This document shows positions 5,911-40,291 of a stretch of DNA of 64,000 nt, in pieces. Location of the stretch: positions 341,326 to 405,325 of the forward strand of contig JBBHKE010001973.1 in the NCBI GenBank assembly GCA_037447655.1. Direction: 5' to 3'. Each line of letters begins with the position of its first letter. Position 1 is the first letter of the stretch. The position numbers and the translations under genes are program-made. The notes under the pieces are model-generated. The model was not told the DNA's origin and made no database searches. It was given only the letters and a program-made list of their open reading frames with translations. Origin of the DNA: Zygnema cylindricum. Its lineage: Eukaryota > Streptophyta > Zygnematophyceae > Zygnematales > Zygnemataceae.

Positions 5911-6166
5911 ATGTCTCGCCGTACAATTTTCCTCCCGCTGCTCCTCCTCCTCCTCCTATTCGTCCGTACGGACTGCGCAACTGTCAAATCTTGCAAGACC
6001 CTTGGCGGCAAGGATTTCCTCCTATCAAAATCCGCCTCGTGTCGATCCCTCGTGAAGTGTTTCACCAAAAAAGACACTTTCAGAGGGCTCAACAGATTTC
6101 CATGTACGGCCTTATTTCTCAAACAGTTGAGAATGAGAAATAATAAAATATGTGTTTCTAAAAAGG
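5911..6166 (+). CDS. Possible first exon: signal-peptide-like, Cys-containing ORF (weak)
   Basis: The ATG at 5911 opens a frame beginning with a basic stretch and a poly-Leu core (MSRRTIFLPLLLLLLLFV), like a secretory signal peptide. About 60 residues with five cysteines follow. The frame reaches a good donor context (AAAAAGG|GTAAGG near 6165) just before a large purine microsatellite. This mirrors the exon/microsatellite layout of the PPR and glycosylase genes in this window. Beyond the donor, the frame continues only into poly-Arg/Gly/Glu microsatellite. Other frames (for example an ATG at 5855 with a Ser/Arg-rich leader) and the minus strand are also open here. No family was recognised. 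Treat as a candidate. Confidence 0.25.
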
Positions 6167-6181
6167 GTAAGGTCAGGGGTT

Positions 6182-6545
6182 TTTGGGAGGAGGGAGGGAG
6201 GGAGGGAGGGAGGAAGGGAGGGAGGGAGGGAGGAAGGGAGGGAGGAAGGGAGGGGGAGGAGGGACGGAGGGAGGGAGGGAGGGAGAGAGGAGGGGGGAGG
6301 GGGGGGAGGGAGGGAGGGAGGGAGGAAGGGAGGGAGGGAGGGGGGAGAGAGGGGGGGAGGGAGGGATGAGGAGGGGGGAGGGGAGGGAGGGGAGGAGGGA
6401 GGGAGGGAGGAGAGAGGAGGGAGGAAGTGCGAAGGGGGGGCAGGGGGGAATCTTGGAAGTCCGGAATTTTTGGAGAGGGCGGGAGGGGGGTAGGGGAAGG
6501 GGGAGGGAAGAGGGATGGTAAGAAAGAGCCGAGGGGGGAAGGTGG
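6182..6545. repeat. (GGGA)n-type purine microsatellite
   Basis: About 360 bases of imperfect GGGA/GGA repeats. They create long Pro/Ser/Leu ORFs on the minus strand and Gly/Arg/Glu ORFs on the plus strand, which are not genes. Confidence 0.95.
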
Positions 6546-11850: not shown

Positions 11851-11957
11851 TTAATTTTGGACTTTTCCCCTTTTTTTTTGTCCTTTACAATGAAGACGGT
11901 CCGAGAGAGATTTTGGATTCAAAGTTTTTCGATCGAAAGCTCTCACACAAGTATACC
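11851..11957 (-). CDS. Glycosylase last exon e (GYTCVRAFDRKTL...)
   Basis: The acceptor AAACAG precedes 11957. The exon begins with GG, completing the Gly codon from the micro-exon, and reads YTCVRAFDRKTLNPKSL then DRLHCKGQ, ending in TAA at 11851-11853. It corresponds to the family terminus 'GYVCVRGFDRETRGPRPLMARLHFPASK'. The acceptor lacks a good pyrimidine tract. The frame is also open upstream to about 12036, so the exact exon start is the weakest border. Confidence 0.8.
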
Positions 11958-14900
11958 CTGTTTTTCCATTTTTACCCATAAAATAAAAAATAAAATAATA
12001 TATTATTATGTTTGTTAAATAAGACAAAAACGACAAATTTTCTCTCTTTCCCTATTCCTCTACCCCTCTCTTTCCCTCTCCCTCTACTCTTCTCTTTCCC
12101 TCTCCCTCTATCCCCTTCGTCGTCCTCTCTTCCGCGCCCATTCCACATTTTATTTGTTGTTATTTATTTATTTATATTGTTTATTAATTAACAAAAACGT
12201 AAACAAAAAAAAAAAAGTAATTAATGAAAGAATTAATAAAAAAACATATAAAAAAGCAAGTGACTGATATACAAATAAATTAAAAAATTTAATAAACAAA
12301 TCAATGTATTAACAACCAACGTAGATAAATATCCAAACAAATAAATAAGTAAATAAACAAATAAATAGATAAACAACTAAATAAATAAACAAATAAATAA
12401 ATAAAGGAATAACAATAAATTATGAAAAATAAATTATAAATATTGAATAATAAATAATGAATAATGAATAATAAATAATGAATAATAAATAATAAATAAT
12501 AAGTATTAGATAATGAATAATGAATAATGAATAATGAAAAATGAAAAATGAAAAATGAATAATGAAAAATAAATAATAAACAATCAAAAGTAAACAAATA
12601 TTTAAATAAGTGAATAAGTAAATAAATAGATAAACAACGAAAAAAAAAAAAAGTGAATAAATAAATAGATGAACAACTAAATAAATAAACAAAAAATAAA
12701 AATAAAGGAATAAATAAACTATGAAAAATAAATTTTAAATATTGAATAACAAATAATGAATAATGAATAATAAATAATGAATAATGAACAATGAATAATG
12801 AATAATGAACAATAAATAATGAATAATGAATAATAAATAAGAAATAAGAAATAATAAATAATGAATAATGAATAATGACAAATGAATAATGAATAATAAA
12901 TAATAAATAAAGAATAATAAATTATAAATATTGAATAATAAATAATGAATAATGAATAATAACCAATCAAAAGTAAACAATTATTTGAATAAGTAAATAA
13001 GTAAATAAATAGATAAATAACCAAATAAATAAAGAAATAATAAATAATAAACCAAAAATAAACAAGCAAACAGATGAATAGATAAATAAACAAATAAATA
13101 GATAAATAACCAAATAAACAAATATTAATAATAAATCAAACAAACAAATAAATAAATATAAAGTAAACAAACAAATAAATAAATAAACAAATAAATGAAC
13201 AAACAAATAAAATAAATAAAAAAATAGCCCTAAAGGGATACAAAGGGGCCCACCGTGCCAAAACAACGCTCTAATCTCGCAGACGTTCAAACCTGAATAA
13301 GACAAAATATAGAATAATGACAAAATAGAGCATAGAGACAAAAGATAAATACAAATAAAGGAATATCGCTCAGATCCAACGAACAAAAAAATGGAAATAA
13401 ACATAGATAACGAAACAAATCAACAAACTGCATCCAGGAAAAAAAAAATCTACTTAATAAAAAAAAAAAAAAAAAAAAAAACCAACAGACAGATGCACAA
13501 GAAAAGAAAGAAATCTGCTTAAAAAGACAAAAAAAAATAAAATTAATAAATAAATAAATAACAAAAAATCAATAAATAAATAAATAGAATTAAAAATAAT
13601 AAAGAATAGTAAAAAAAAAAATAAAGAAAAAATAAAAATAATAATAAATAAAAAAAAAAGAAAAATCGCCCACCCTTGGTGATGGCCTGAGTGGAAGTTC
13701 CAAAAAAGACGAATCTTCGGCGCAGTTTCCAGAGAAGCTTCCGGGAAACTTCCACTGGACACAGACTGCTCTCGTGGTCCGCAAAGACCTGGGGGGGGGG
13801 GGGGGGGGGGGGGGGGAGAGGCAGAGAGGGAGGGGGAGAGGGAGAGGAAGAGGGAGAGAGAGGGGGGAGAGGGAGAGAGAGGGAGAGGAGGGGGAGAGGG
13901 GGATAGGGGGAGGGAGAGGGGAAGAGGGAGTGGGAGAGGGGGAGAGGGAGAGGGAGAGGGGGAGGGGGAGAGGGAGCGGGAGGGGGAGGGGTAGGGGGAG
14001 GGAGGGGGAAAGGAAGAGGGGAAGAAGAGAAGGCGGAGAGGGAGAGGGAGAGGGAGAGGGTAGGGGAGGAGGGAGAGGGGGAGAGGGATGTATAGTAGTT
14101 GATGACATGGCAGCAGACAAAGTGGATGAAAAAGGACAAAGGTAGAAAGGGACAAATAGAATTTCCTGGTTAATTGGGAATTACAAGACATTCGCTTTAA
14201 GTAGAATGAGAAAGTCACAGCTGTGACCTTTCAAGATCCAGGAGGCTAATGTGACACTGAAAGGTCACTTGGCTCTTTTGCCGAAAAGGCAAAAGGTAAG
14301 ATCCTTAGTTGTCAGAGGGCTAAGGATCAGATCTAGTGTAAGTGCTGCAGACTCTGCAGTGTGCGCTTCTAAGAAGTGCCAGGAGCTTAAAGCAGAAAGA
14401 AAAACATAGGAAACTAAAAACTGAAACTGAAGCAAAAAACTGAGCTAGGTAGATGTCATAGGCTATTCCGCTATGGCTAGCTAAATAACGCAAACTGGAA
14501 TACCAGTTTGCGTTTATTGATAAGGTAGAGCTAGCCTGAAGATTCTAACAAAGAAATAATCTCAACACCCCCCCTCTTGATTAGAATCGAAGGCCGGAGG
14601 AGGAAAGATGTAATTCGAACTGAGGCCGAGCAAGAGCCTTTGTGAGGAAGTCAGCTAGCTGCTTGGAAGTGGGACAGTATATGAATTTCACAGTGCCAGC
14701 TGCAATGGCGTCGCGCGTGAAGTGGAACTGAATGTCAATATGCTTCGTTCTGCGATGGTGGACCGGATTGCCCATGAGGGCAAAAGCGCCCTGGGAGTCG
14801 CTGAAGATGACAGTGGCATTAGGTTGAGAAGACTGGAGGTTGGCGAGGAGAAAGAGTAGCCAAATTGCTTCCTTTGTGGCATGGGTAGCCGCCATATATT

Positions 14901-17900
14901 CTGATTCGGTTGATGAAAGGGCAACGGTCGGTTGCTTTTTGGAAGCCCAGGAAATGAGAGCGCCATGAAGGGAAAAACACACACCAGTCGTGGAGCGCCG
15001 GGAATCCATTTCGCCCCCCCAATCCGCATCGCAGAAACCAACCAGTTCAGGGGAAGAGGAACCGGTGAAGGTGAGTTTGAGGGTTTTAGTCCCCTGGAGG
15101 TAGCGGAGAACTCGCTTGGCAGCAAGGAGGTGATCTGTAGAAGGGTTAGAGACAAATTGACTCAGCTGTCCTACCGCTACTGCTATGTCCGGACGTGTTC
15201 CTGTCATGGCATACATGAGACTACCTACAATAGAACGATACAGGTCATGTGTTGCACCGGGGACAGGCCCACCGGAGTTCTTTATAAGTTTGACATTCGG
15301 GTCCAATGGGGTAGAGACTGGACTGCAGGCTGTCATTGAAAATCTGGTGAGGACTTCATTAATATATTTTTCTTGAGAGAGAAATAATGTTTTGGAGGGT
15401 CGGTCTCTACCTACAAAAATACCAAGGCAATATTCAACCTCTCCTAAGTCAGTCATGGAGAAGTGAATGTTAAGCATGGCTTTTACAAGGTTAATTAGGG
15501 AAAGAGAAGGACTGGCTAAGAGTAAATCATCAACATAGATTACCAAGATGACCAGGGATTCCTTATTACCTCGTAGAAACAGTCCAAAATCTGCATCAAG
15601 CTTGTAAAAACCTTGCTTGAGGAGAACAGCTTCCAGGTGCTTATTCCAAACCCGAGGCGCCTGCTTCAAGCCGTAGAGGGATTTGAGAAGGCGACAGACG
15701 AGGTGTTCGGCGCCTGGTACGATATATCCTTCTGGTTGTTTGATGAATACTTCTTCACTTAGGGTGCCGTAAAGGAAGGCCGTCTGGACATCCATGTGAT
15801 GGATGTGCCAGTCACGGGCAGCAGCAAGAGAGAGGAGAATGCGAATGGAGGTAAATTTGGCGACAGGAGCGTAGGTTTCGTGAAAATCCACCCCTTCCTT
15901 TTGTAAAAATCCCTTCGCGACGAAACGAGCCTTAAAACGATCAAGGGATCCATCGGCCTTAGTTTTGATACGGAAGACCCATTTGGATCCTATGACCTTT
16001 CGACCGTGTGGAAGGGAGGTAAGTTCCCAGGTGCCATTCTTTTGTAAGGATGCAAATTCTGCATCCTTTGCTACTTTCCAGGAGGCAGCATTTGGGCCAT
16101 TCATGGCGGCCGAAAAGGAGAGAGGAACGTCAACAGTGGCAATGTTCGCTGTGCCATTGGTGTCACGAAGCTGTCGAGCATGAAGTCTCTCACTTTTTCT
16201 GATGGGTAGAGCAGAAAGAGTGGGCAGAGTAGAGGCAGCAGTAGTAGGCACAGGATCGGCTCTTGGAATAACGTATGGGGGAGCATTAGGATTGTCCGGG
16301 GAAAGGGAGTAAGGATCTGAAATTGTGCGAGTAAGTGTGGGAGGAGAGGATGGGAAATGTGATTCTGAAGCTGTTCTGGTAAGTGTAGAAGGAGGTAGAA
16401 GAAGAGTGGGGTGGGAGAGTGAAGGAAAATTGGCCGAATTGGGAGAAATCGCAGGAGGAATGATAGATAGGAGTGAGGAAGGAGGTGTGTCGGGAGCTGC
16501 TGATAGAAGAGGTGCTGATAGAGGAGGAGGGGCAGGTGAAGAGGATAGAAGTTTGAGAAGAAGAGGAGTTTCGTTAAAACTGACGTCACGGCTGAGAACG
16601 ATTCGACGTTCGTTGGAGAGCCAAATACGGTATGCTTTAGATTCGGTGGCAAAGCCGACGAGGACGCCAATCTTGGCACGGCTGTCCCACTTGCCGGCCG
16701 GAGTGAGGTTCTTGACCCATGCGGTGCAACCGAATATACGGAGATGGGAGACGTCCGGTTTAATTCCGGTCCAGGCTTCATAAGGTGTTTTGCCAGGTAG
16801 GGCGGAGGTTGGGGAAAGGTTTCGGAGGTAATTCGCAGTGGTGACAGATTCAGCCCAGAAATTAGTCGGCAGGGCAGCAAAGTGTAGCATGGATCTTGCC
16901 ATGCTGACGACTGTACGATTGTACCTCTCAGAAACTCCGTTTTGTTGTGGCGTATGGGCGACTGTGGATTGGTGAATGATGCCGTGGAGACTGAGGAACC
17001 GCGAAAATTCCGTTGAGAAGTACTCCCCTCCATTGTCGGTTCGCAGACATTTGATGCGACAGTTAAGGGAGTTTTCGACGAGTGACTTGTAATCTTGAAA
17101 TTTTTGGAATGTATCAGATTTTCGACGAATGAGAAAGAGGAGGCAATAGCGTGTAGCGTCATCAATAAACGTGACGAAATAAAGGGCGTTGGTATGGCTG
17201 GGTACGGACATGGGACCACAAAGATCTGAGTGGACCAATGTAAGGGGGCCGTCAGATTTTGAAGTGGAAGAAGGAAAGGACGGGCGAGTTAATTTTCCTT
17301 GGACGCATCCAGAGCAAAAAGGGAGATTCTTGGATGAAAATGAATCTAGGCCGTTCACAAGGCCTTTGCTAAGTATTTGCATACTGGAGGTGGAAAGATG
17401 GCCGTAGCGAAGATGCCATCGGGAAAACGACTGAGGGGACGAAGATATCGCAGAGTTGGCAGATCCGACGGGTTGAAATTGAGATAGGATGTATATGGAT
17501 CCGGATTTGACTCCAATACCCACCGGGGTTTTATTGGATGAAAGGAATGTGACAGTGGTGGTGGAAAAAACTGCGGTGGCGCCTTGTTTAAGGGCGGCGC
17601 CAACAGAGAAAAGATTTTTCTTTAATCCAGGGACAAATAAGACGTGAGAGAGGAGTATCGGTGATGGCATATGCGGGCGGCCTAGAGTGGAAATATCGCC
17701 GATATGGGTGGCCGTTAAAACGGCATTGTTGCCAAGTAAAATCGGCATGGGAGAATGAAGAGGCGATAAATGCGTGAACCAATCGGAGCGTGAGGATAGA
17801 TGATGGGACGCCCCAGAATCAACGATCCAAGTATCATGCGGGTTAAGAGAATCGGTTAGTGCGGATGTGACCAGGGCATATTCAAAATCTGGTTGTGAGG

Positions 17901-20348
17901 AGTCAGCCGGAAATTGTCCAACGACAGGTGGGACGAAATGATAAGGAGAATTGTTGTACGACTGTGTGATAGGCGGCGTTGGAGAATATTCGCTAGGGGA
18001 AGTATTGACGTATCCAGGCGAAGAAGCGTAGACGAAGGGATTTGACGACGCAAAATAGTCGGGAGCGACCGGAGGAATGGCCTCAGCCGTAGAGGCGTGA
18101 CCATGAGGAGGGCCGCGGCCAGGCTGGCGGCCACGTCCACCTGTTCGACCAGGATTCCCCTGTCGATCTGCTTACGTTTGAGTGCAGGACAATTGTCAAT
18201 AACGTGGTCAGGTTCCCGGCAATAGCGACAGGAGGAGATCCTGGGTGGTCGGGTGGACGGATGGTAAGCTGCCAGGGCGACACCAGGGGGCGGTGGCATA
18301 TTTTGTTGTCTCCTCGTGTAATAGGCCGGTAGTGAGAGATGGAATGGTGATCGTGACAGGGGAATTATCAATCGATGAAATGAATGCGGCGTAGGAGGAC
18401 GGCAGTCCTCCCAAGATCGCCGTAATAATATCTTCATCAGTGACGGTGGAACTGATACTCTTCAGACGACCAGCCAGAGATTTGATATTCTGGATATAAT
18501 CCTGCATGTTCTCGGAGGGAAGTTTCTGAGAAGAGATCAGTTGACGACGGAGAAGGAGTTTGTTGGACCAAGATCTGTTTTCGTAGGCATTCGTTAGAAG
18601 CGTCCAGGCGTCATGAGCAGAGCTAGCGTCACGGATGAGTCCAAGTTGGGAAGGCTCAAGAGCCAGAACCAATCGCGAATGCGCGTCCTCATTGCGAACG
18701 CGCCAAGCAGTTTTGGCGGCGGCGTCCGAAGGTTCTGCCGCACTTCCGCTGATAATAGACCAAAGCTTTTCCCGTCGCAAAAGATGCTCAATTTGAAACT
18801 TCCATCCGTAGAAGTCCGTGCCGTTGAATTTAGAAACGGTATTAGAGTTAGCATTGAAAGGCCCATAACCTTTAGTAGTTTATGACATGGTAGCAGACAA
18901 AGTGGATGAAAAAGGACAAAGGTAGAAAGGGACAAATAGAATTTCCTGGTTAATTGGGAATTACAAGACATTCACTTTAAGTAGAATGAGAAAGTCACAG
19001 CTGTGACCTTTCAAGATCTAGGAGGCTAATGTGACACTGAAAGGTCACTTGGCTCTTTTGCCGAAAAGGCAAAAGGTAAGATCCTTAGTTGTCAGAGGGC
19101 TAAGGATCAGATCTAGTGTAAGTGCTGCAGACTCTGCAGTGTGTGCTTCTAAGAAGTGCCAGGAGCTTAAAGCAGAAAGAAAAACATAGGAAACTAAAAA
19201 CTGAAACTGAAGCAAAAAACTGAGCTAGGTAGATGTCATAGGCTATTCCGCTATGGCTAGCAAAATAACGCAAACTGGAATACCAGTTTGCGTTTATTGA
19301 TAAGGTAGAGCTAGCTTGAAGATTCTAACAAAGAATTAATCTCAACAGGATGGGGGTGGGGAGAGAGAGAGGGAGAGAAAAACCTCAGGTCAACATTATA
19401 AGCAGGCTAGAACAATAGACAACGGAAGAATGGAAGGACAGGGAAAAGGGAGGGCAGAGAGAAAGAAGCGAGGGAAGGGGGGAGCAAGAGAGGGAGAGGG
19501 AGAGAGTGGGGGGGTGGAGGGAGGTACCTCGTTGGTTTGGAAGTAGGTGCCATTGAGAGGGAAGCTTCCCTCCATCGCACTACGGCACCCAAACTGAAGG
19601 AAGAGAGGGAGAGAGAGAGGGGGGGAAACAGGGAGACAAAGAGAGAGAAGGGGCGAGAGAGAGACAAAGGGGGAGAGAGAGAGAGAGAGAGGGAAAGAGA
19701 GAGGGAGAGAGGGAGAGAGAGGAAGGGAGACAGAGGGAGAGAGAGAGAGGGAGGGAGAGAGAGGGAGAGAGAGAGCGAGAGAAAGAGTGGGGGAGAGAGA
19801 GAGACAGAGAGACAGAGAAAGCGAGAGAGAGAGGGAGGGATAGCGAGGGGGAGAGGGAGTGTTAATCATTGACCAAAAACGTACCAAATTGTAAGAAGTG
19901 TGAGGGATAGGTTGTGAGAGAGAGAGAGAGGAGAGAGATAAAGTGAGAGGGTAGGGAGGGAGAGAGAGAGAGAGAATAAAGATCGTAGACCAGAAAAGTA
20001 CAAATTGTAATTGAAATAACAGAAAATAAATGAAAATAAACAAATAAATAAATAAATAAATAAATAAAAATAAAATAAATAAATAAATAAAAACCAATAT
20101 ATGTATAAACCAAAAATAAAAATGGAAAAGAATAGAGCTCCTCACCAGCCACGTTCCCTTCACCGAATCCTCTCCCTCCTTCCCCTTCGAAGCGCACTCA
20201 ATTTCCACCTCTCGCCCTCCCTCTCCCTCCCCCTCCTTCCCTCCTTGTCTCTCTCCCTCTCTCCCTCCCTCTCTCTCACCCTCCCCCCCATTTGCCGAAA
20301 TTGGACAACCGGATTCGTCCACAGCTGGCATGCAGCTTGGGACTTCAC
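11851..20348 (-). CDS. DEMETER/ROS1-like DNA glycosylase, C-terminal exons only
   Basis: Five minus-strand exons (20348-20146, 19593-19528, 13788-13674, 13292-13254, 11957-11851) join with consistent phases (0, 0, 1, 1) and GT-AG borders. They encode the conserved C-terminal RRM-like domain of plant DEMETER/ROS1 5-methylcytosine DNA glycosylases. Blocks are EDSVKGTWL, SFPLNGTYFQTNE, VFADHESSL, FVFFGTSTQAITKG, ALFWHG and YTCVRAFDRKTL. In DEMETER the corresponding blocks include FPLNGTYFQVNEVFADH and YFGTS (established knowledge). These enzymes excise 5-methylcytosine in the nucleus for active demethylation. The HhH-GPD catalytic and Fe-S regions were not found. Upstream exons may lie beyond the Copia array at 21-30.6 kb, outside the window, or be lost. 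The 5257-bp Copia-2 insertion lies wholly inside the intron 19527-13789. No lesion is seen in the five exons. Confidence 0.85.
12150..13230. repeat. Degenerate (AATAAATAATGAATA)n array in a glycosylase intron
   Basis: About 1.1 kb of interlocking AATAAA, AATGAAT and AACAAAT words, with two longer paragraphs (about 12300-12710 and 12700-13050) resembling each other. It fills most of the intron between exons d and e. Minus-strand ORFs over it consist only of Phe/Ile/Leu/Tyr/Ser. Confidence 0.9.
13254..13292 (-). CDS. Glycosylase micro-exon d (39 bp)
   Basis: A 39-bp exon with acceptor TTATTCAG and donor CACG|GTGGGC. It completes the Gly codon split from exon c and encodes LNVCEIRALFWH plus the first base of the next Gly. 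It matches the family segment 'LTTEEIQYCFWRG' in position and spacing. The phase (2 nt in, 1 nt out) fits both neighbours exactly. Confidence 0.85.
13674..13788 (-). CDS. Glycosylase exon c (VFADHESSL ... FFGTSTQAITKG)
   Basis: A 115-bp exon beginning after a poly-C acceptor (CCCAG) with VFADHESSLCPVEV, then LLWKLRRRFVFFGTST. It ends in phase 1 at AAGG|GTGGGC. In family members VFADH follows NE directly, so exons b and c were adjacent before Copia-2 enlarged the intron between them. The IDVPRDWIWNLPRRTVYFGTS consensus is diverged here (VSRKLLWKLRRR). Confidence 0.9.
13789..14085. repeat. Purine (GGGGGA/GGGAGA)n microsatellite
   Basis: A G-run of about 27 bases, then GGGAGA repeats. On the minus strand it is the polypyrimidine tract before glycosylase exon c. 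It is also the left flank of the Copia-2 insertion site. Confidence 0.95.
14091..14567 (-). repeat. Copia-2 3' LTR
   Basis: 477 bp. On the minus strand it begins TGTTGAGATT right after the polypurine tract and ends CTACTATA. It contains the same gag ATG context (ATGTCATCA, 14108-14100) as the 5' LTR. Confidence 0.9.
14581..17900 (-). CDS. Copia-2 Pol polyprotein (protease-integrase-RT-RNase H), open
   Basis: A continuous frame of over 1055 codons runs in from the gag side. In order it holds an aspartic protease (WIVDSGASHHLSSRSDW), a pre-integrase HHCC region (WHLRYGHLS ... CSGCVQGK), a D,D35E integrase (HSDLCGP, RTDNGGEY, QQNGVSERYNR), RT with catalytic YVDD (VIYVDDLLLASPSL) and preceding HHMDVQTAFLYG, and RNase H ([25 protein letters not shown]). 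The stop TAA overlaps the start of the polypurine tract. Copia Pol is normally cleaved by its own protease to copy and integrate the element. All the catalytic motifs checked are present. The defects are confined to gag. Confidence 0.93.
17856..18888 (-). pseudogene. Copia-2 gag (stop at codon 3, two frameshifts)
   Basis: The gag reading starts at 18888 but meets TAA at codon 3. The UBN2 gag domain (REKLWSIISGS ... SRLVLALEPSQL ... LTNAYENRSWSNKLLLRRQL ... ILGGLPSSYAAF) is then open to about 18310. A frameshift follows, and a second frame carries the CCHC zinc knuckle CRYCREPDHVIDNC (C-x2-C-x4-H-x4-C). Another shift near 18160 leads into the protease. In intact relatives (28209-25003) gag and pol are one frame. 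Capsid production from this copy is therefore impossible without partners. Confidence 0.85.
18860..18870 (-). promoter_or_regulatory. Copia-2 primer-binding site (half-tRNA type)
   Basis: GGTTATGGGCC directly follows the 5' LTR on the minus strand. It is complementary to the anticodon stem-loop of initiator-Met tRNA (…GGGCCCAUAACC…), as in Drosophila copia, not to the tRNA 3' end. It lies inside the gag reading frame (Gly-Tyr-Gly-Pro). Confidence 0.75.
18871..19347 (-). repeat. Copia-2 5' LTR
   Basis: 477 bp and collinear with the 3' LTR at an offset of 4780. It carries the gag start codon at 18888, only 18 bases before the LTR end, and a TAA as third codon (18882-18880) that the 3' LTR copy does not have. 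Confidence 0.9.
19353..20145. repeat. Purine microsatellites and an AAATA tract in a glycosylase intron
   Basis: GAGA/GGGAGA repeats (19353-19510, 19600-19860, 19910-19975) and an (AAAT)n run (20030-20095) surround the 66-bp exon b. On the minus strand they form polypyrimidine tracts. Confidence 0.9.
19528..19593 (-). CDS. Glycosylase exon b (SFPLNGTYFQTNE)
   Basis: A 66-bp exon of 22 whole codons. The acceptor is CTTCCTTCAG and the donor is AACGAG|GTACCT. It encodes FGCRSAMEGSFPLNGTYF and QTNE, one of the most conserved blocks of the plant DEMETER family (consensus SFPLNGTYFQVNE). Confidence 0.9.
20146..20348 (-). CDS. Glycosylase exon a (Cys-containing region to EDSVKGTWL)
   Basis: The acceptor is a strong pyrimidine tract ending CCCCTCAG before 20348. 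The donor is GGCTG|GTGAGG after 20146, which closes a complete Leu codon. The frame reads EVPSCMPAVDESGCPISANG, a Gly/Glu/Arg microsatellite-encoded stretch, then EIECASKGKEGEDSVKGTWL. The end aligns with the family's Cys-rich linker leading to 'VRGTLLIPCRTAM'. The purine-repeat middle may be coding or may be a small intron. That part is uncertain. Confidence 0.6.
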
Positions 20349-20349
20349 C

Positions 20350-20960
20350 TGAGGGGGGAGGGGGGGGGAGGGAGAGAGGGGGAGGAAGAGGGAGAGAGGA
20401 GGTAGAGGGAGGGGGAGAGGAGAGAGGGGTTAGCGGGAGAGGGGGAGAGGGAGGGAGAGGGAGAGTGGGAGGGAGAGGGAGGGAGAAGGAGGTATATGGA
20501 GGGAGAAAGTGGGAGAGAGGAGGGAGAGAGGAGGGAGAGCGGAGGGAGGCGGGGGGAGAAGGAGAGAAGAAAGATGGGTTGGGGTAGGAGAGAGAGAGAG
20601 AAGAACTTCGATGGAAACATCGAAGGGTAAAAATGGGGGGAAAAAAATTGGTTCTAAATTGGCAACACTAAATAGGGTTTTAAAAAAGGGCCAAAATAGG
20701 GTTACAATTTGAGATTAAATTTTATTTAACAATTGAGAAGAAGAAAGGAACCTAAAAACCCAACGAAAAAGAAAAAGCATAGAAAAGACGAGGGGCTTTT
20801 TTTGCCTCTTTCATTATTACCCATTTGAGCCCAATTTGAAACATGGTCAAGTTTAAATAGTTTATGTACATACTATATACTATATAGTACATTGTAGTTA
20901 CTATATCCTATATATCATATACTTATACACGAAATACAATATACTGTATACTACATACCA
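20350..20960. other. Purine tract then AT-rich spacer, no exon found
   Basis: 20350-20600 is GGGAGA microsatellite, the pyrimidine tract of exon a on the minus strand. 20610-20960 is AT-rich with a TATAC-rich end. No upstream glycosylase exon was seen. Confidence 0.6.
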
Positions 20961-20962
20961 TA

Positions 20963-21419
20963 TGTTGGACTTAGCCCTTTGTTAGAAGCTTTTCTTGTTT
21001 TTCTCAGTTAACTCTGTTTTACTTAATAACGAAAACTAACATTCTAGTTTACGTTATTTAGTTAGTTCCTTTATTCCAATTTACATTATTAAGTCAGTTT
21101 TCCTTTTATGTTCTTTTAGCTTAATTTAAAACGTCCAGCTTAGCATCTAGTGCCAGATCCGATCCTAAGCTGTCCACCGCCTACTTAGAGATCTTGTCTC
21201 TTGCCCTTTCGGAATTATGTGTCAGATGACCTTTCAGGTCACCTACGGTCTCTAGACTTTGAGAAGTCACTTCGTGTCATTCTCTGCTCTACTTAACTGC
21301 CTAAATCTTTTGTATCAATTACCTTCTTAATCAAAACAATTTGTTTTGCTCTCTCTTTTGTCTTTTTCACTTTTACTTTCCTTCCTACTTCATCTGCTGC
21401 CATGTCATTCACTACAATA
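20963..21419 (+). repeat. Copia-3 5' LTR
   Basis: It begins TGTTGGACTTAGCCC and ends ACTACAATA directly before the primer site. No partner LTR exists in the window, so its borders rest on the TG start and the PBS position. It contains the gag ATG (21402). Confidence 0.7.
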
Positions 21420-22381
21420 GGTTATGGGCCTTTCAATGCTAATACCGTTGCTAAATTTAATGGCTCGGATTTCAAAGGATGGAAATATCAAATCGAGCAT
21501 CTTTTTCGTCGCGAAAAACTCTGGTCCATTATTAACGGTAGTGAGGTTGAGCCATCCGACGCTGCTACCAAACCTGCGTGGCTACTCCGAAATGAGGAGG
21601 CTCACTCTCGATTGGTTCTAGCCCTTGAATCTACCCAACTTGACCTCATCCGCGACGCACACTCGGCTCATGACGCATGGCCATTGCTGTCCAATGCTTA
21701 CGAAGTTAAATCCTGGTCTAACAAACTTCTCCTTCGTCGGCAGTTGAACACCTGTCAGAAACTGCCAACCGAATCTATTCAACAGTTTGTTCACAATGTC
21801 AAGTCTATTGCCGGCCGACTCAAAAGTATCGGTGCTACAGTTTCGGAGGAGGATATAATTTCCGCGATCCTAGGAGGCTTACCTACCTCCTACTCTGCAT
21901 TTATTTCATCTATTGACAACTCTTCTGTAGTCATCACTATTCCGTCACCCACGAAGAAACTAAGCAAAATCTTCCCCCGGTTCCTGGTGTTGCTCTGGCA
22001 GCTATCACTCCGTCTAACCGGCCACCTAAGACATCTTCTTGTCTTTACTACCGTGATATGACTCACGTCATCGACGACTGTCCGGCTCTTCGACGAAAAC
22101 TCGAACGACAAGGAGGATCTGATCGAACGGGAGGACGTGGACGGAACAATATGCGCGGTCCTAATCATGGTCACGCCTCAACGGCCGAAGCTACCTTTCC
22201 TCATTCCCAAGAATATTTTGCGCCGACAAATCCTTTCATCCATTCTCCAGTGTACGGCCACAATATGATCGGTGATACTCCACAGATGACCCCGGTCGCC
22301 CAACCGTACCATCATTACTTATACGGTCAAGCTATCCCTCCTCCAATTCCAACTATCCCTATTACTCCGACACCTGTTTAA
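21402..22381 (+). pseudogene. Copia-3 gag (deletion, damaged zinc knuckle, stop)
   Basis: It starts MSFTTIGYGPFNANTVAKF and runs through the gag domain (EHLFRREKLWSIINGS, SRLVLALESTQLDL, ILGGLPTSYSAF). Near 21950 a deletion removes the 'LTARLLHEE' segment and shifts frame. The zinc knuckle reads CLYYRDMTHVIDDC, so the second Cys is replaced by Tyr. A TAA at 22379 separates gag from protease, whereas intact relatives are one frame. Confidence 0.85.
21420..21430 (+). promoter_or_regulatory. Copia-3 primer-binding site (half-tRNA type)
   Basis: GGTTATGGGCC is complementary to the initiator-Met tRNA anticodon loop. It lies in the gag frame as Gly-Tyr-Gly, six codons after the ATG. Confidence 0.75.
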
Positions 22382-22459
22382 TATCCTTCACATCCACCGG
22401 ATTACGGATTTGCTCTTGCCACATCCGCGGTCTCACATTCACCTGTCATCGATTCCCCT

Positions 22460-23506
22460 ATGCTGACCGATTTATGGATCGTGGACTCTGGCGCTTCACA
22501 TCACCTCTCCTCACGCTCCCATTGGTTCACATCCATATCGCCACTTCGTCCTCCGATGACGATTTTGCTAGGAAACAATGTCGCTTTACCTGCCACTCAC
22601 CATGGACAAATCTCCACTGCCGGTTTTTCCACCGCCAAGTCACCAATCACTCTCTCTCATGTACTGTTCGTCCCCGGTCTCAAAAAGAATTTTTTTTTTC
22701 TGTTGGCGCCGCACTTAATCAAGGCGCCACAACTGTCTTTTCTACTACCATTGTCGCTTTCCTTTCCCCACACAAGTCTCAGTTGGGACTTGGCATAAAA
22801 TCAGGATCAATCTATATCCTTTCCAACTTCCAATCTGTTGGATACGCCAACATGGCCACATCCTCATCTTCTCACACATTGGCGAAATGGCATCTTCAAT
22901 ACGGTCATCTTTCCTCTTCCAGCCTCCACTTATTAAGCAAAGGCCTTGTCACTGGCCTTGACTCATTTACCAACAAAAATCTTGATTTTTGCTCAAGATG
23001 CGTCGAAGGCAAATTGACTCGACCATCCTTTCTGTCTAGCAAATCCAACTCTAACGGTCCCTTGTCATTAATCCACTCTGACCTTTGTGGCCCGATGTCA
23101 GTACCCAGCCAAACTGGAGCACTCTACTTTGTTACATTCATTGACGATGCAACCAGATTTTGCCATCTTTTTCTCCTACGTCGAAAATCTGACACCTTTC
23201 AAATATTCCAACAATACAAATCATTAGTTGAAAAATCCCTTGACTGCCGCATCAAATGTCTCAGAACTGACAACGGCGAGGAATACTTCTCTACCGAATT
23301 CTCCAATTTTCTAACCACTCACGGAATAATTCACCAATCAACAGTTCCTAACACCCCACAACAGAATGGAGTTTCGGAGAGGTACAACCGTACCGTAATC
23401 AACATGGCACGTTCCATGCAGCACTTTGCAAAACTGCCCACCATATTTTGGGCAGAATCCGTCACGACTGCTAATTACCTACGAAATCTATGTCCCACCT
23501 CCGCCC
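22460..23506 (+). pseudogene. Copia-3 protease-integrase, truncated by an insertion
   Basis: The protease block WIVDSGASHHLSSRSHW is open from 22460. An expanded T-run near 22695 (AATTTTTTTTTT) causes a frameshift. The integrase then continues: WHLQYGHLS, HSDLCGPMSVPS, RTDNGEEY (the usual GG is GE), QQNGVSERYNR, FWAESVTTANYLRNL. The frame enters the Copia-4 LTR at 23507 and stops at 23529. Confidence 0.88.
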
Positions 23507-23924
23507 TGTTACAGGTAAAGCCATTGTAACAAATAGAGTGGAGAGAATGGGAACAGACAGAATGCTCTGTTTTAATGAATGTTTTAAAACTGATACAAAA
23601 CAAAAGGAAAGGATAAGCTAAATAGAGAAAATATCTCGAGAGTGTCCTCACGAGAATTAAACCGTACTTTCCTATTTTGAAGAGGCACTTGACCTTTCGG
23701 CCAAGAGCCAAGGTGAAGATTTATAGACATATCTTGACCCGAATCTTATCACGTAAAACACATTGATTGTAAAAACCAGAAGGACTGAAACACTGAAATC
23801 CTAGATACTAGGACAGACTGCAGAGTTCTAAATATCGAAATTCTAGATGACAGAATTCAGAATTTCGCTATTTAAAAACATTGAACAGAAACGTAATCTT
23901 CTATCAAAGACTACTCTTCTAACA
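23507..23924 (-). repeat. Copia-4 3' LTR
   Basis: 418 bp, with perfect TGTTA...TAACA ends. It abuts the integrase reading of Copia-3 at CCGCCC|TGTTAC. The minus-strand end includes the gag ATG context. Confidence 0.85.
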
Positions 23925-23937
23925 CCCGCTCTCTTTG

Positions 23938-25002
23938 TTAGAAGGTAAGACCAGCAGAAGCTCGATGCAGTTCGAACTGAGGTCTATGGAGAGACTTGGT
24001 GAGGAAGTCCGCCATCTGGAGAGAAGCCAGGCAGTATTGAAAGGTGAGAATTCCAGTTGAGATAGTTTCCCGTGTAAAGTGGAACTGAATGTCTATGTGC
24101 TTGGTTCGTCGGTGATGAACTGGGTTACTCATTAGCGCGAGGGCACCTTGGGAGTCATTGAATATCTGAGTTGGGGAAGTTTTGGGAAATTGAAGATTTG
24201 CAAGGAGAGATCGGAGCCAGATTGCCTCCTTGGTAGCATGTGTCGTTGCCATATATTCAGCCTCATTTGAGGACAAGGCAACGGTAGGTTGCTTTTTGGA
24301 GGCCCAAGAGACAAGAGCTCCTCCGAGTGAGAAGCAGACACCAGAGGTGGAGCGGCGGGTGTCAAGGTCTTCCCATTTAGTCCGCATCGCAAAAGCCAAT
24401 AAGGGTAGGAAAGTCGCCACCGGAGAAGGTAAGGCGTAGGGATTTGGTGCCTTGAAGATAGCGGAGGACTCGCTTAGCCGCAAGGAGGTGCTCAGGGGTT
24501 GCGTTAGAACAAATTGACTAAGCTGCCCGACTGCAACAGCAATGCCTGGCCTAGTGCCAGTCATAGCATACATGAGACTGCCGACCATGGATCTATATAA
24601 GTCATGGATGTCTCCGTGGACACGCCCACCATAGTTTGAAGCAAGTTTGGTGTTTGCATCTAAAGGAGTGGAGACAGGAGTACAGTTTGACATAGAGAGC
24701 CTTTCTAGGACCTCAGAGATATACTTCTCTTGAGAGAGGTGAAGGGTTTTGGTATGACAATCACAGGTTACTAAAATTCCAAGGCAATATTCTTATTCCC
24801 CTAAATCTGTCATTGCAAAATAAGAATTAAGCATGTTTTTGACGTGCAGAATTGCAGACAGAGAGGGACTAGAGAGAAGAAGATCATCGACGTAAATGAT
24901 GTTGATTAAAAGGGACTCGTTTTTACTTTTGAAGAATATACCAAAGTCGGCTGCAAGCTTACAAAAGCCTTCACGTATGAGGATGGCTTCAAGGTGTTCA
25001 CT
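23938..25002 (-). pseudogene. Copia-4 RT C-terminus and RNase H (broken)
   Basis: It continues the frame after the TGA at 25003-25005: RT with YVDD (IIYVDDLLLSSPSL), a second stop where relatives read GELEYC, then RNase H with ALSSNEAEY (relatives SSTEAEY) and [10 protein letters not shown], ending [13 protein letters not shown] at 23938. A frameshift lies in the '[22 protein letters not shown]' region near 24510. Confidence 0.88.
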
Positions 25003-28000
25003 TCAAACGGGAGGGGCTTGCTTCAAGCCGTAAAGAGATTTGAGGAGGCGACAGACGAGATGCTCATTGCCCGGGGAGATATAACCTTCGGGTTGGCGAA
25101 CAAATATCTCTTCCTTGAGGGCGCCATAGAGGAACGCCGTTTGCACATCCATCTGATGGACGTGCCAATCTAAAGAGGCGGCGAGAGAGAGAAGGATGCA
25201 GATGGAGGCGAATTTGGCCACAGGTGCATAAGTCTCTGTAAAGTCAAGCCTTTCTTTTTGAAGAAATCCCTTCGCAATAAATCTGGCTTTGAACCGATCT
25301 AGGGTTCCGTCAGATTTTGTTTTGACTCTAAACACCCATTTAGCGCCGATGACTTTTCGATCTTTAGGGAGGGGTGTAAGCTCCCAAGTTCTATTTTTTT
25401 GGAGAGACGCGAATTCCGCATCTGTAGCCGCTTTCCATTCTGCGGCATTCGGGCCTGCCATTGCCACAGCAAAGGTTGGAGGGACATCGAAAATATTGGC
25501 GACGCCATGAGTGGTGCGCCTAGCTTCGATTCTGGCGCTTTTCCGGAGGCCAGAGGACTGAACAGGCAGAGAGGCTGCAGGAAGTACACTGGGAATAATG
25601 TAAGGAGGCTCATTTGAGCGGATGGGAGAGAGGGAGTAGGGATCGGAGAGGGTCTTTTGTAGAGATAGGGAGTGTGATGAAAGGAGAGGAGTAGATGAGG
25701 TTCGGGCAAGGGAAGAGGAGGGAGAAGAAAGAGGAGGGGTAGAGACGGAGGGAATGGAAAGATATGTGGGGGATATTACTGAAACTGGAGCTGTTGGAGG
25801 AGGCGAGTTGTGAACGGAAGGAGAAAGGGAAGGAGGAGAGGGGTAAAGGAGTTTGTTTAGCAAGGGAGTTTCATCAAATGTGACATCGCGGCTGAGTGTG
25901 ACTTGGCGTTCTTGGATTAGCCATATTCGGTATGCCTTTGACTCGTTCGAATATCCGACCATGTAGCCAAGTTTTGCACGGCTGCTCCATTTTCCAGCGG
26001 GCATAAGATCCTTGATCCACGCAACGCTACCGAATATTCGTAAGTGACTGACGCTCGGTTTTATGCCTGTCCAAGCTTCGTGAGGTGTGAGATTTGGGAG
26101 AGTAGAAGTCGGGCATAGATTTCGGAGATAATTTGCCGTTGTAACGGATTCTCCCCAGAATATTGTTGGGAGGCCGGCAAAATGGAGCATGGAGCGTGCC
26201 ATGTTGATGACGGTACGGTTGTACCGTTCAGCGACGCCGTTCTGTTGAGGTGTGTATGCCACTGTAGTTTGGTGTGTGATTCCATGAGCAGAGAGAAACG
26301 AGGCGAATTCCGTGGAACAGAATTCGCCGCCGTTGTCTGTACGGAGAACTTTGATTCGAGAATTGTGGAAATTTTCTACTTTTGCTTTGAATTGTTGAAA
26401 CGTAGCAAAAGTATCTGATTTTCGGCGAATTAGGTAGAGGTGACAGTAGCGTGTGGCGTCGTCAATAAATGTTACAAAATATTGAGAGCCATTGTGACTC
26501 TGAACTGACATTGGTCCACATAGATCAGAGTGGATTAAATCAAGTGGTCCGTTGGATTTGGACGTACTTGAGGGAAAAGATGGTCGAGAAAACTTTCCTT
26601 CGACGCAACCGGAACAAAATGGAAGTTTCTGATTGGCCAAAGGTTCCAGTCCAGTCACAAGACCCTTGGTCAAGTCATGGAGACTGGATCCGGACAGGTG
26701 GCCATATCGGAGGTGCCACTTTGAGAAGGTAGCTTGTGAGGAAGCGACGGCCATGTTGGCGAATCCAATGGGCGAGAAGGACGAGAGGATGTAGATGTCG
26801 CCTCTTTTAACTCCGAATCCGACCGTAGATTTTGTTGGGGATAAAAAGTTAACTCGATCGGAAGAAAAAACGGCTGTTGCTCCTTGTTTCAAGGCCGCAC
26901 CGACAGAGAAGAGATTCTTTCGTAATTCCGGTACAAAAAGGACGCTGGAAAGAGTAATACTGGTTTGACGGTTGGAGTTGGAAGGTGTGACTGTACGACC
27001 AATATGAGTGGCTGTGAGCGTACTGTTGTTGCCAAGTACGATTGGCATTGGTGGACTGAGTGGAGTCATAGATGAGAACCAATCGGAGCGGGATGATAAG
27101 TGATGCGATGCTCCCGAGTCAACGATCCAAGCGGAGTCAGGGACCTGTGATGATTGTTGTACCGCGGAGGACAATGCGAATCCGTAATCGGATTGCGTCA
27201 TTGATGGTGGCTGATTGGGATTGTCCACCGGTGAGTGGAGTACGGGTGGTTGGGTAGACGCCGACAATGGATAAGTAGGAACGTATCCTGGGATTCGCGA
27301 ACCGGAGTGATCCGCCAGATGAGTTGGGCCGTACGGATAGTGGGATGCGACAAAAGGATTGGTCTGGGAGAACTCCAAATTTCCAAGAGCAAATGTACTC
27401 TCAGCAGATGAAGCTTGGCCGTGGTATGATCCACGCCCTCCAGGATGACCTCGTCCACCAGTACGGCCGGGTCCACCTTGTCGTTCATTTTTGCGTTTAA
27501 GCGCCGGACAGACATCTATGATGTGATCTGACGCTCGGCAATAGCGACAGGTGGTGGAGGAAGATTTTGGGGGCCTGGGATTGGGTGAAAAGGTCGCCAG
27601 GGCGACTCCTGATTTTGTTTGAAACGATTGTTTCATTTCCTCGTGAACCAGTCGCGCAGTTAGGGTCGGAATGGTTAGAGCAACTGGAGAGTTGTCAAGG
27701 GAGGAAATGAGGGAGGAATAGTAATCCGGTAAACCTCCAAGGATAGCTGAAATAAGATCATCATCGGAGATTGGCGATTTGATACTTTTAAGTTGACCGG
27801 CCAGCGACTTGAGGTGTTGGACGTAGGTTTGAATAGAATCAGTAGGCAACTTGCGATAAGTATTCAGCTGCCTCTTGAGAAAGAGCTTGTTGGACCAGGA
27901 CTGATTCTCATATGCAGAGGTCAAGAGTGACCACGCATTGTGAGCAGAAACTGCGTCGCGGACAATGTCGATCTGTGATGACTCAAGCGCGAGGACAAGC

Positions 28001-28209
28001 CGAGAGTGGGCTTCCTCGTTTTTAGCGAGCCAAATTGTTTTGGCAGCAGCGTCAGTTGGTTCGAGTTCGCTGCCACTAATGATCGACCACAGTTTCTCAC
28101 GACGAAATAGATGTTCTATCTGGTATTTCCAACCGTAAAAGTCTGTCCCATTAAATTTGGCAACGGTGTTGGCGTTGCCGGGCCCATAACCTGTTACAGG
28201 TGAAGCCAT
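25003..28209 (-). pseudogene. Copia-4 gag-pol, open for 1068 codons then stopped inside RT
   Basis: The single frame starts at 28209 inside the LTR with MASPVTGYGPGNANTVAKF. In order it holds the gag domain, CCHC knuckle CRYCRASDHIIDVC, protease WIVDSGASHHLSSRSDW, pre-integrase WHLRYGHLSGSSL, integrase (HSDLCGP, RTDNGGEF, QQNGVAERYNR), a Pro/Ser-rich linker, and RT up to LYGLKQAPPV. There a TGA replaces the Trp of the usual 'PRVWSEH'. It is the best guide in this window to the native gag-pol fusion layout. The rest of RT and RNase H follows in 25002-23938 with further lesions. Confidence 0.92.
28181..28191 (-). promoter_or_regulatory. Copia-4 primer-binding site (half-tRNA type)
   Basis: GGTTATGGGCC(C) abuts the LTR end ...GTAACA. 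The 12-base match to the complement of initiator-Met tRNA GGGCCCAUAACC is exact, and the site is in the gag frame (Gly-Tyr-Gly-Pro). Confidence 0.8.
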
Positions 28210-28931
28210 CGTAGCAAATAGAGTGGAGAGAATGGGAACAGACAGAATGCTCTGTTTTTAATTAATGATTAAAAACTGATACAAAACAAAAGGAAAGGAT
28301 AAGCTAAATAGAGAAAATATCTCGAGAGTATCCTCTCAAGAACTAAACCGAACCTTGCGATTTCCGCGCTACGGACAACCGGTGGGAGCGGTGAGAAGAT
28401 GTGGCGCACGCGTCCACGTCGCCCCCCTTTCATTCCGCTTTACGACGCGCCGGGCCGCGCGGACATCGTGTGTATAAATATGTTCAGGGTTTTTTTCTCA
28501 TTCGTGTTTTTTTTTATAAAAAAAAAAACACGACCACTCAAAAACCCTAAAGTAAAATGTAAGGTACCCGGGCGGTATCTTGCGAACGGTGAGAATAACG
28601 CCTCTTTTGGGTGTAAAATACGATTCTCACCGCTCCCACCAACCGGGCCAACTCGTAAGAAACCTTGTCTGTACTTTCCTATTCTGAAGAGGCACTTGAC
28701 CTTTCGGCCAAGAGCCAAGGTCAAGATTTATAAACAGATCTTGACCCGAATCTTATCACGTAAAAACACATTGATTGTAAAAACCAGAAGGACTGAAATA
28801 CTGAAATCCTAGATACTAGGACAGACTGCAGAGTTCTAAATATCGAAATTCTAGATGACAGAATTCAGAATTTCGCTATTTAAAAACATTGAACAGAAAC
28901 TTAACTTCTATCAAAGACTACTCTTCTAACA
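28192..28931 (-). repeat. Central LTR of the Copia-4/5 array (with insertion)
   Basis: 740 bp, with the same TGTTA...TAACA ends as 23507-23924. It is longer because a 303-bp foldback-like segment (28358-28660) is inserted. Apart from that the two LTRs are highly similar. It serves as the 5' LTR for Copia-4 and the 3' LTR for Copia-5. Confidence 0.85.
28358..28660. mobile_element. Foldback-like insertion inside the central LTR
   Basis: It is absent from the sister LTR. It is bordered by a 7-bp direct repeat AACCTTG (28351-28357 and 28661-28667). The interior has a 17-bp inverted repeat GGTGGGAGCGGTGAGAA (28381-28397) / its complement (28624-28640) and a central A/T hairpin (about 28490-28550). 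It is GC-rich at the left and has no transposase. The family is unknown. Confidence 0.6.
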
Positions 28932-30458
28932 CCCCCTCTCTTTGTTAGAAGGTAAGACCAGCAGAAGCTCGATGCAGTTCGAACTGAGGTCTATGGAGAG
29001 ACTTGGTGAGGAAGTCCGCCATCTGGAGAGAAGTCTGGCAGTATTGAAGGTGAGAATTCCAGTTGCGATAGTTTCCCGTGTAAAGTGGAACTGAATGTCT
29101 ATGTGCTTGGTTCGTCGGTGATGAACCGGGTTACTCATTAGCGCGAGGGCACCTTGGGAGTCACAGAATATCTGAGTTGGGGAAGTTTGGGGAAATTGAA
29201 GATTTGCAAGGAGAGATCGGAGCCAGATTGCTTCCTTGGCAGCATGTGTCGCTGCCATATATTCAGCCTCAGTTGAGGACAAGGCAACAGTAGGTTGCTT
29301 TTTGGAGGCCCAGGAGACAAGAGCTCCTCCGAGTGAGAAGCAGACACCAGAGGTGGAGCGGCGGGTGTCGAGGTCTCCCCCCCAGTCCGCATCGCAAAAG
29401 CCAATAAGGGTAGGAGAGTCGCCACCGGAGAAGGTAAGGCGTAGGGATTTGGTGCCTTGCAAATAGCGGAGGACTCGCTTAGCCGCAAGGAGGTGCTCAG
29501 GGGTTGGGTTAGAAACAAATTGACTAAGCTGCCCGACTGCAACAGCAATGTCTGGCCTAGTGCCAGTCATGGCATACATGAGACTGCCGACCATGGATCT
29601 ATATAAGTCATGGATGTCTCCGTGGACAGGCCCACCAGAGTTGGAAGCAAGTTTGGTGTTTGCATCTAAAGGAGTGGAGACAGGAGTGCAGTTTGACATA
29701 GAGAACCTTTCTAGGACCTCAGAGATATACTTTTCTTGAGAGAGGTGAAGGGTTTTGGTAGGACGATCACGGGTTACTAAAATTCCAAGGCAATATTCCA
29801 ATTCCCCTAAATCTGTCATTGCAAAATAAGAATTAAGCATGTTTTTGACGTGCAGAATTGCAGACAGAGAGGGACTAGAGAGAACAAGATCATCGACGTA
29901 AATGATGATGATTAAAAGGGACTCGTTTTTACCTTTGAAGAATATACCAAAGTCGGCTGCAAGCTTACAGAAGCCTTCACGTATGAGAATGGCTTCAAGG
30001 TGTTCACTCCAAACGCGAGGGGCTTGCTTCAAGCCGTAAAGAGATTTGAGGAGGCGACAGACGAGATGCTCATTGCCCGGGGAGATGTAACCTTCGGGTT
30101 GGCGGACAAATATTTCTTCCTTGAGGGCGCCATAGAGGAACGCCGTTTGCACATCCATCTGATGGACGTGCCAGTCTTGAGAGGCGGCGAGAGAGAGAAG
30201 GATGCGGATGGAGGCGAATTTGGCCACAGGTGCATAAGTCTCTGTAAAGTCAAGCCCTTCTTTTTGAAGAAATCCCTTCGCAACAAATCTGGCTTTGAAC
30301 CGATCTAGGGTTCCGTCAGATTTTGTTTTGACTCTAAACACCCATTTAGAGCCGATGACTTTTCGATCTTTAGGGAGGGGTGTAAGCTCCCAAGTTCTAT
30401 TTTTTTGGAGAGATGCGAATTCCGCATCTGTAGCAGCATTCGGACCTGCCATTGCCAC
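28926..30458 (-). pseudogene. Copia-5 RT-RNase H, 5'-truncated
   Basis: A 510-codon frame covers the whole RT (WELTPLPKDRKVIGSKWVF ... HQMDVQTAFLYGAL ... IIYVDDLVLSSPSL) and RNase H ([32 protein letters not shown]). Near 29045 a one-base loss shifts the last 30 or so codons out of frame relative to Copia-4. Protease, integrase and gag are missing upstream, with the body ending near 30636. The RT catalytic residues are intact. Confidence 0.9.
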
Positions 30459-30692
30459 AGCAAAGGTTGGAGGGACATCGAAAGTGGCAATATTGGCGAC
30501 GCCATGAGTGGTGCGCCTAGCTTCGATTCTGGCGCTTTTCCGGAGGCCAGAGGATTGAACAGGCAGAGAGGCTGCAGGAAGTACACTGGGAATAATGTAA
30601 GGGGGCTCATTTGAGAGGATGGGAGAGAGGGGAGGTACAGCACCGACATTTTAACATTCAAGGTATACGGTACAAAACCCCATCTCTATTAT

Positions 30693-32045: not shown

Positions 32046-32215
32046 TTTATTCGACGCCATGATGTTCTGGGGTGCTATCACTTTGGCTACCCACATCCGC
32101 GTCTCTACACCCGTATTCCCTATCATCTTCGAGAACCTATCTAAACAACTTTGCGTCTGCCTTTGGAGTTATTGGCTAATGATTTTTATAATGAGCGGCA
32201 TGGCATTTACTATTC

Positions 32216-34618: not shown

Positions 34619-34628
34619 NNNNNNNNNN
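34619..34628. other. Assembly gap (10 N)
   Basis: Ten N characters, beside pyrimidine microsatellites. The true length is unknown. Confidence 1.

Positions 34629-36821: not shown

Positions 36822-40291
<3,470 letters not shown>

Follow-up and report, generated by a model that had tools for sequence, protein, structure and literature searches.

What is encoded by a stretch of the Zygnema cylindricum genome in which short minus-strand exons lie among microsatellites and a retrotransposon, and is the gene to which these exons belong whole? We analyzed a window of 64 kb (C1485:341326-405325; positions given without a scaffold name refer to this window). We consider it highly probable that five exons in this window form the end of a DEMETER (DME)/ROS1 gene, that the exons before them are on scaffold C1170 and catalytic exons probably on C416, that the break of the gene at a second Copia element (el2) is an assembly switch, and that a first element, Copia 1, is spliced out with intron 2; nothing in the sequence supports a regulatory role of either Copia. 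We call it copy A of the two 5-methylcytosine DNA glycosylase genes found in the genome. As a DME-type enzyme its product would excise 5-methylcytosine, and from what is known of the family the RRM-like domain would be a conserved and essential C-terminal part. In rice, one study describes male sterility upon truncations of OsROS1a that remove both the Per-CXXC and RRM domains, and partly sterile pollen upon deletion of Per-CXXC alone (PMC9569698).

A sequence-only reading of this DNA had proposed five exons of 203, 66, 115, 39 and 107 bp with matching phases, which together would form the C-terminal domain of a DEMETER/ROS1 protein. We found all five on the minus strand at the claimed positions and with the claimed lengths. 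Exon 1 (20146..20348, 203 bp) codes for (G)EVPSC...SVKGTWL, exon 2 (19528..19593, 66 bp) for FGCRSAMEGSFPLNGTYFQTNE, exon 3 (13674..13788, 115 bp) for VFADHESSL...ITK(G), exon 4 (13254..13292, 39 bp) for (G)LNVCEIRALFWH, and exon 5 (11851..11957, 107 bp) for YTCVRAFDRKTLNPKS... with a TAA stop. Each exon is preceded by an AG acceptor, exons 1-4 are followed by GT donors, and TAA closes exon 5. The computed junction phases are, in order, 0, 0, 1 and 1, so that splicing yields a single peptide of 175 amino acids (aa). A profile search with this translation, which the sequence-only reading had called for, matched Pfam RRM_DME over positions 1-101 of 102 (E=8.9e-43; score 145 bits, cut-off 34.6), and the AtROS1 structure 7yho (PDB) matched the same peptide with E=1.2e-40 and 143 bits. 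As judged from the sequence, both matches are far beyond chance, and the assignment to the DEMETER/ROS1 C-terminal domain holds. AtROS1 alone finds three of the five exons by tblastn (E 8e-7 to 2e-10; exon 2 at 1.8e-7, exon 3 at 1.8e-10, exon 5 at 7.5e-7). The claim that no single long open reading frame (ORF) betrays the gene was not quite right, as exon 1, intron 1 and exon 2 all fall within one stop-free frame at 19399-20667.

Exon 1 includes an in-frame purine microsatellite, which codes for an insert rich in E, G and R at the site of the permuted CXXC unit of ROS1. Pfam Perm-CXXC, searched up to E=10, had no match in the window protein, P0002 or P0004, and was present in P0006 (E=2e-15). 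The unit is also absent from some land-plant DML proteins (PMC11314353); it is an optional feature that only some clades have. We also noted that the microsatellites of the gene are strand-asymmetric: in the introns at 19594-20145 and 13789-14090 the sense strand is rich in pyrimidines (C+T up to 97%), and in the coding insert of exon 1 (20146-20348) it is rich in purines.

A protein search returned 35 relatives at E<=1e-3 among 2,074 candidates of similar length. The best of these, P0001, is 86% identical by alignment and consists of a single ORF of 124 aa that crosses all four window junctions, including both borders of exon 4; it comes from a contig (RNA or DNA) of 1,306 bases with the source label 'lgn'. 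To judge by this alignment, the single ORF is independent support for the exon junctions in the window. The window and P0001 differ at 7 of 101 RRM columns; none of these 7 is among the 55 columns at which eight other DMEs are invariant (with gaps tolerated in one of the eight; hypergeometric P=0.003). Because the differences avoid these invariant columns, the RRM domain of this divergent lineage appears to be constrained in its evolution. A 16-row tree sets the window, P0001 and the second genomic copy (paralogue B, below) apart from the eight vascular plants and the five unlabelled rows (96/99); the alignment behind it is short, 9 of its 13 inner branches are open, and paralogue B is a long, partial row. 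Among the listed papers on algal DME we recognized no description of this gene, which is not a claim that none exists. The gene is a further member of the known DEMETER/ROS1 family.

If these are the final exons, where is the preceding part of the gene? By sequence, the exons before window exon 1 are on scaffold C1170, at 351391-350492, 350158-350113 and 349659-349602, and have AG/GT borders. This series ends with ...RFPDDPCPYLLAIWQP plus one base, and window exon 1 contributes the remaining two bases of the split codon (phase 'G|GT') before continuing with EVPSC.... Joined together, the eight exons of C1170 and the window form one frame of 510 codons with 0 internal stops, as opposed to 25 and 16 in the two alternative frames. 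The joined product is collinear with residues 554-753 of the ROS1 PDB construct (E=4.6e-56, 194 bits), and the join places the conserved DME mid region in frame with the RRM. Neither an RRM exon on C1170 nor a mid exon in the window could be found. The stop-free joint frame, the AG/GT borders, the fit in phase and the collinearity with ROS1 therefore argue that the C1170 and window exons are one gene.

The same join bears on whether the five exons could instead be a self-standing gene that encodes only RRM_DME and has its own promoter. An in-frame ATG inside exon 1, at 20331, would suit such a gene, as would the ORF of P0001, whose Met stands just ahead of the RRM_DME domain. The P0001 start may, however, be an artefact of its short contig. 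A canonical acceptor precedes exon 1, the C1170 exon supplies in phase the base that the first codon of exon 1 lacks, and P0002 joins ...LAIWSPG without interruption to GEVPS, the very point at which window exon 1 begins. Since the joined protein is also collinear with ROS1, we regard a separate RRM_DME-only gene as very improbable.

The sequence-only reading had further suggested that the glycosylase exons (HhH-GPD) be sought to the right of the five exons on the minus strand. None was found there: neither tblastn nor phmmer with AtROS1 (the latter run with --max on 2,923 six-frame fragments of at least 12 aa) gave a convincing HhH-GPD or mid-region exon in the 64-kb window, in which the glycosylase part of AtROS1 reached a best E of about 1 or worse. 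Further up C1170 (351,400-389,673), HhH exons were likewise not convincingly found. Genome searches covered an assembly of 352.8 Mb in 2,689 contigs. In these, RRM_DME matched at E<=0.001 only on C1485, in the window, and on C791 (3 matches, 7 candidates scored), and matches of the AtROS1 glycosylase domain that can be read as DME exons came from C791 and C416.

The C791 locus is a divergent second DME, paralogue B (C791:43599-56245, minus strand), in which exons for the glycosylase, iron-sulphur, mid and RRM parts follow one another in this order; its 4Fe-4S cysteine exon is at C791:51782-51856. Its homologue of exon 2 has the same length of 22 residues and is bounded by AG and GT, and its homologue of exon 3 has identical borders and phase; for the exon 1 counterpart ahead of the RRM, no convincing candidate was located. 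The DME-type exons on C416 (E 2.6e-5 and 0.004 genome-wide, 4e-9 and 8e-8 within extracted stretches) carry a GMGLKS...AFPV motif, and they end at the poly-T end of the contig. We take GMGLKS to be the site of the catalytic Lys. Because the C416 exons resemble the conserved and not the divergent paralogue, they probably belong to the window gene, copy A.

A genome search with Pfam HhH-GPD matched only C2171 (E 6.7e-4) and C1974 (0.047). As it missed both C416 and C791, this search is insensitive to such short exons. Neither of its matches was retained as a DME locus, C2171 being MutY-like and C1974 having family matches without weight and only weak matches to ROS1. C1178 is a further, weak candidate. 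A separate observation concerns C962:126869-127135 (plus strand), where a stretch interrupted by two stops can be aligned, without introns, to the segment of the ROS1 glycosylase domain from the Asp to the cysteines at 29-32% (about 30%) identity. Its match to ROS1 had E 0.55 genome-wide and 1.5e-7 in a four-locus comparison with the composition correction off; the stretch is possibly a decayed DME relative, or a chance match.

Why, then, do the exons of one gene lie on two scaffolds? The intron upstream of exon 1 contains the 5' part of el2 (20963..23504, plus strand), which is antisense to the gene and is cut at 23504. Its 5' long terminal repeat (LTR) occupies 20963..21419 on the plus strand. 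On C1170, a Copia of the same family (343895-349115, plus strand) lies directly after the last exon, and its right-hand LTR (C1170:348659-349115) is the 3' LTR of el2. The window LTR differs from this right-hand LTR at 15/457 sites and from the left-hand LTR of the C1170 Copia at 25/453, while the two C1170 LTRs differ from each other at 28/453. At 34 informative sites, 19 pair the window with the right-hand C1170 LTR, 9 pair it with the left-hand one, and 6 pair both C1170 LTRs. The target site is divided in the same manner: CCATA precedes el2 at 20958..20962 (plus strand), an identical flank follows the C1170 Copia at C1170:349116-349120, and the left flank of the C1170 Copia is GGCCA, unlike its right flank. 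A 28-bp tandem repeat, whose left end is at 20934..20962 (plus strand), continues at C1170:349121-349171. When the outer flanks were joined with the target site counted once, the resulting empty site was an unbroken 28-bp tandem repeat of 2.9 copies (88% match, 0% indel), with a shift score of 0.89 compared with 0.48 for a control using the C1170 left flank; none of 1,000 shuffles reached 0.89. Over the Copia stretch common to both scaffolds, 200-bp blocks are 88-99.5% alike. As the whole stretch is only 93.6% alike, the left half of the C1170 Copia is another copy.

Genome-wide, the matches of the flank other than itself were two blocks next to the C1170 Copia and a single AT-rich stretch of C1959 (3 candidates scored, with a tool that skips simple repeats). 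We rejected C1959 as a partner of the AT-rich flank, since the 10 kb examined there contained neither a DME exon nor a Copia resembling el2. On this sequence comparison, one Copia insertion in a DME intron has its two ends on two scaffolds, and the scaffolds are therefore chimeric at el2. The match of the split target site, the LTRs and the repeat across scaffolds shows that the gene was still unbroken when el2 entered the 28-bp tandem repeat of the intron that precedes exon 1. The break inside el2 is most likely a misassembly, in which the assembly switched between repeat copies. Such a split target site offers a practical means of demonstrating a chimeric join by sequence alone.

Several findings weigh against this reconstruction. 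For the 900-bp exon of C1170, the nearest AG was taken as a guessed left border. Paralogue counting and contig-end geometry are all that ties C416 to C1170, and the copy A exons for the Asp and iron-sulphur residues, between the GMGLKS exon of C416 and the mid exons of C1170, were not found in the assembly. At el2, 14 of 119 offset control joins equal the empty-site score, the flank itself being repetitive, and both scaffolds run through their switch points without Ns (window 20349-34618; C1170:340001-360000). Finally, 6 of the 55 otherwise invariant columns are ones at which the window and P0001 alike deviate from the other DMEs.

The lack of an N gap would also fit a real break, in which ectopic recombination or a nested insertion at el2 left a recently orphaned, non-functional gene tail and copy B supplied the activity. 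Recombination between LTR elements causes rearrangements and is a known source of them. Against such a break, the eight exons tested across both scaffolds keep their open frame and AG/GT borders. A simple reciprocal exchange would be expected to leave the other half of the partner Copia, which is not in the window; instead, el2 ends at 23504 against a Copia on the opposite strand. Joins of 10 N also lie ~9 kb (C1170:334578-334587) and ~11 kb (window 34619-34628) from the Copia ends. A real, very recent rearrangement is possible; it would leave the tested exons intact and would be unlike a simple exchange. Overall we regard a real break as unlikely.

The unstranded 10-N scaffold gap at 34619-34628 adjoins a repeat that is also found on C1170. 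This repeat of ~890 bp, 92-93% alike among its copies, occurs at window 33730-34618 and at C1170:353688-354575 and 359088-359974; it lies directly next to the window's gap, and visual inspection suggests that the right end of C1170 consists of it, too. It is likely a site of scaffold mis-joins.

What does the first retrotransposon do to the gene? Copia 1 (14091..19347) lies in intron 2, between exons 2 and 3, on the minus strand, which is that of the gene. Its 5' LTR (18871..19347) and 3' LTR (14091..14567) are 477 bp long, and identical copies of the target site CATCC, also read on the minus strand, flank it on the 5' side (19348..19352) and the 3' side (14086..14090), in agreement with the Copia described in the sequence-only reading. 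That the element is young was borne out as well, since its LTRs differ at only 9 sites (Kimura two-parameter distance 0.019). If land-plant rates apply, its age would be 0.7 to 1.5 million years. The domains present are gag (Retrotran_gag_2), integrase and RVT_2, with a polypurine tract ahead of the 3' LTR; gag and pol share a common frame parted by one or more stops between 18211 and 18171. A genome search with the LTR, in which 40 of 107 candidates were scored, matched at least 48 places. Two of these are the LTRs of Copia 1 itself, four match at 92-96% (three of them on C2278 and one on C1356), another 34 match at 72-84%, and the remaining 8 are short fragments. By these matches the family is common, and Copia 1 represents a young branch of it with a low copy number. 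We further observed that the LTRs at 14091 and 18871 end in TG...TA and that the 3' end of the LTR seems to bear the gag start codon (ATGTCAT...), so that LTR and gag may overlap.

In the simplest view, transcription would run through the transposon-laden introns, which would then be spliced out, and Copia 1 would be removed along with intron 2. Judging from the sequence, we think it likely that Copia 1 is a neutral insertion, tolerated and spliced out with the pyrimidine-rich intron. The flanking exons are intact, the equivalent intron of paralogue B is ~0.7 kb long and has no Copia match to the window, and the selective cost of such an insertion would be expected to be low in a genome rich in transposable elements (TEs).

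Could Copia 1 instead be a methylation sensor that feeds back on the demethylase? The sequence-only reading had drawn a parallel with the methylation-sensing TE near Arabidopsis ROS1. This parallel is weak, as Copia 1 lies between exons 2 and 3 and the ROS1 element sits in the promoter (PMC6186995). If intronic methylation matters here, the closer precedent would by analogy be IBM1, in which intronic methylation is reported to promote full-length transcripts (PMC8921224). The position of Copia 1 within the RRM-coding part, its sense orientation and its youth would be compatible with a sensor in the style of the ROS1 promoter or IBM1, and these Arabidopsis cases provide precedents. Hints of deamination come from transitions at 2 of 12 CG-context LTR sites, compared with 3 of 463 other LTR sites, and from the 3' LTR, whose observed/expected (o/e) CpG ratio is 0.32; both hints are weak. 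The Copia 1 body, however, is not CpG-depleted (o/e 0.91), the position of Copia 1 is not that of the methylation-sensing element (MEMS) in the ROS1 promoter, its relatives are common, and it is not the only Copia in the gene, which also has el2. For comparison, CpG o/e was 0.53 and 0.60 in two mTERF ORFs of the window, 0.76 in the DME exons and 0.77 in the window as a whole. As a proxy for methylation, CpG depletion is thus mixed, weak and undecisive, and we did not use it as support. A sensor of this kind appears improbable. Regulation through methylation of the intronic Copia is possible by analogy and is not supported by the sequence findings. An intron-based methylation rheostat, in which the sense Copia in the RRM-coding intron and the antisense Copia upstream would let methylation select full-length or truncated enzyme, is a decidedly improbable extension of the same analogy. 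If true, it would be an IBM1-like mechanism acting on a demethylase itself, in a green lineage outside the vascular plants.

Beyond the gene, a Copia region extends to its right (20963-30631). Next to el2 this region holds two tandem Copia copies (23505-30631, minus strand) that are 95% alike, the 5' copy being truncated at 30631; the pair seemingly has one common LTR, interrupted by ~300 bp. A match to RVT_1 at 32216-33181 (E=6e-4) is below the Pfam cut-off. A PPR exon lies at 39881-40230 on the plus strand (E=1e-13 for the peptide as typed); it is part of a plus-strand gene (36822-40230) with a possible upstream exon at 36822-37517, amid microsatellites and without a Pfam match. Four mTERF-type copies form a tandem array on the plus strand (42152-43219, 49998-51278, 56147-57520 and ~62915 to the window end, which cuts the last copy), with 78-83% identical DNA and duplicated flanks. 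Pfam mTERF was found in the ORFs at 49998 and 56147 and not in the shorter ORF at 42152. At the other end of the window, an ORF at 5911-6369 (plus strand) has a signal-peptide-like start (MSRRTIFLPLLLLLLLF) followed by a GGGA microsatellite.

How does this locus compare with known systems? As a retrotransposon, Copia 1 shares with Ty1/copia elements its LTRs, 5-bp target repeats, gag (Retrotran_gag_2), integrase, RVT_2 and polypurine tract. Ty1/copia LTRs usually end in TG...CA; those of Copia 1 differ in ending in TG...TA, and its gag-pol is interrupted by one or more stops. With the MEMS/Helitron sensor of the Arabidopsis ROS1 promoter, the locus shares a transposon near or in a demethylase gene, whereas here the transposon is a Copia in an intron of the terminal domain and any sensing would be hypothetical. 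With IBM1 it shares a long intron that contains TE-derived sequence and precedes the last exons; methylation of this intron, and an effect of it on polyadenylation, would here be hypothetical. Like the plant DEMETER/ROS1/DML proteins, the gene has RRM_DME over nearly the whole profile, a collinear mid region (PKLKxIxRLRTxHxVYExPD, PDDPCxYLLAIWxPGE) and an EPIIEEP motif (whose own alignment score is low, 7 bits), and DME-type glycosylase exons occur elsewhere in the genome. It differs from them in lacking a Pfam Perm-CXXC match, in the microsatellite-coded insert rich in E, G and R at that site, and in being split over scaffolds. With exons of 39-203 bp, long pyrimidine-rich introns and a cut inside a Copia, it is a gene that automated annotation could miss or mangle. 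Together, these comparisons document DEMETER-type demethylases, as two paralogues, in a lineage outside the ferns and flowering plants compared here, with a conserved paralogue that has no recognizable CXXC unit.

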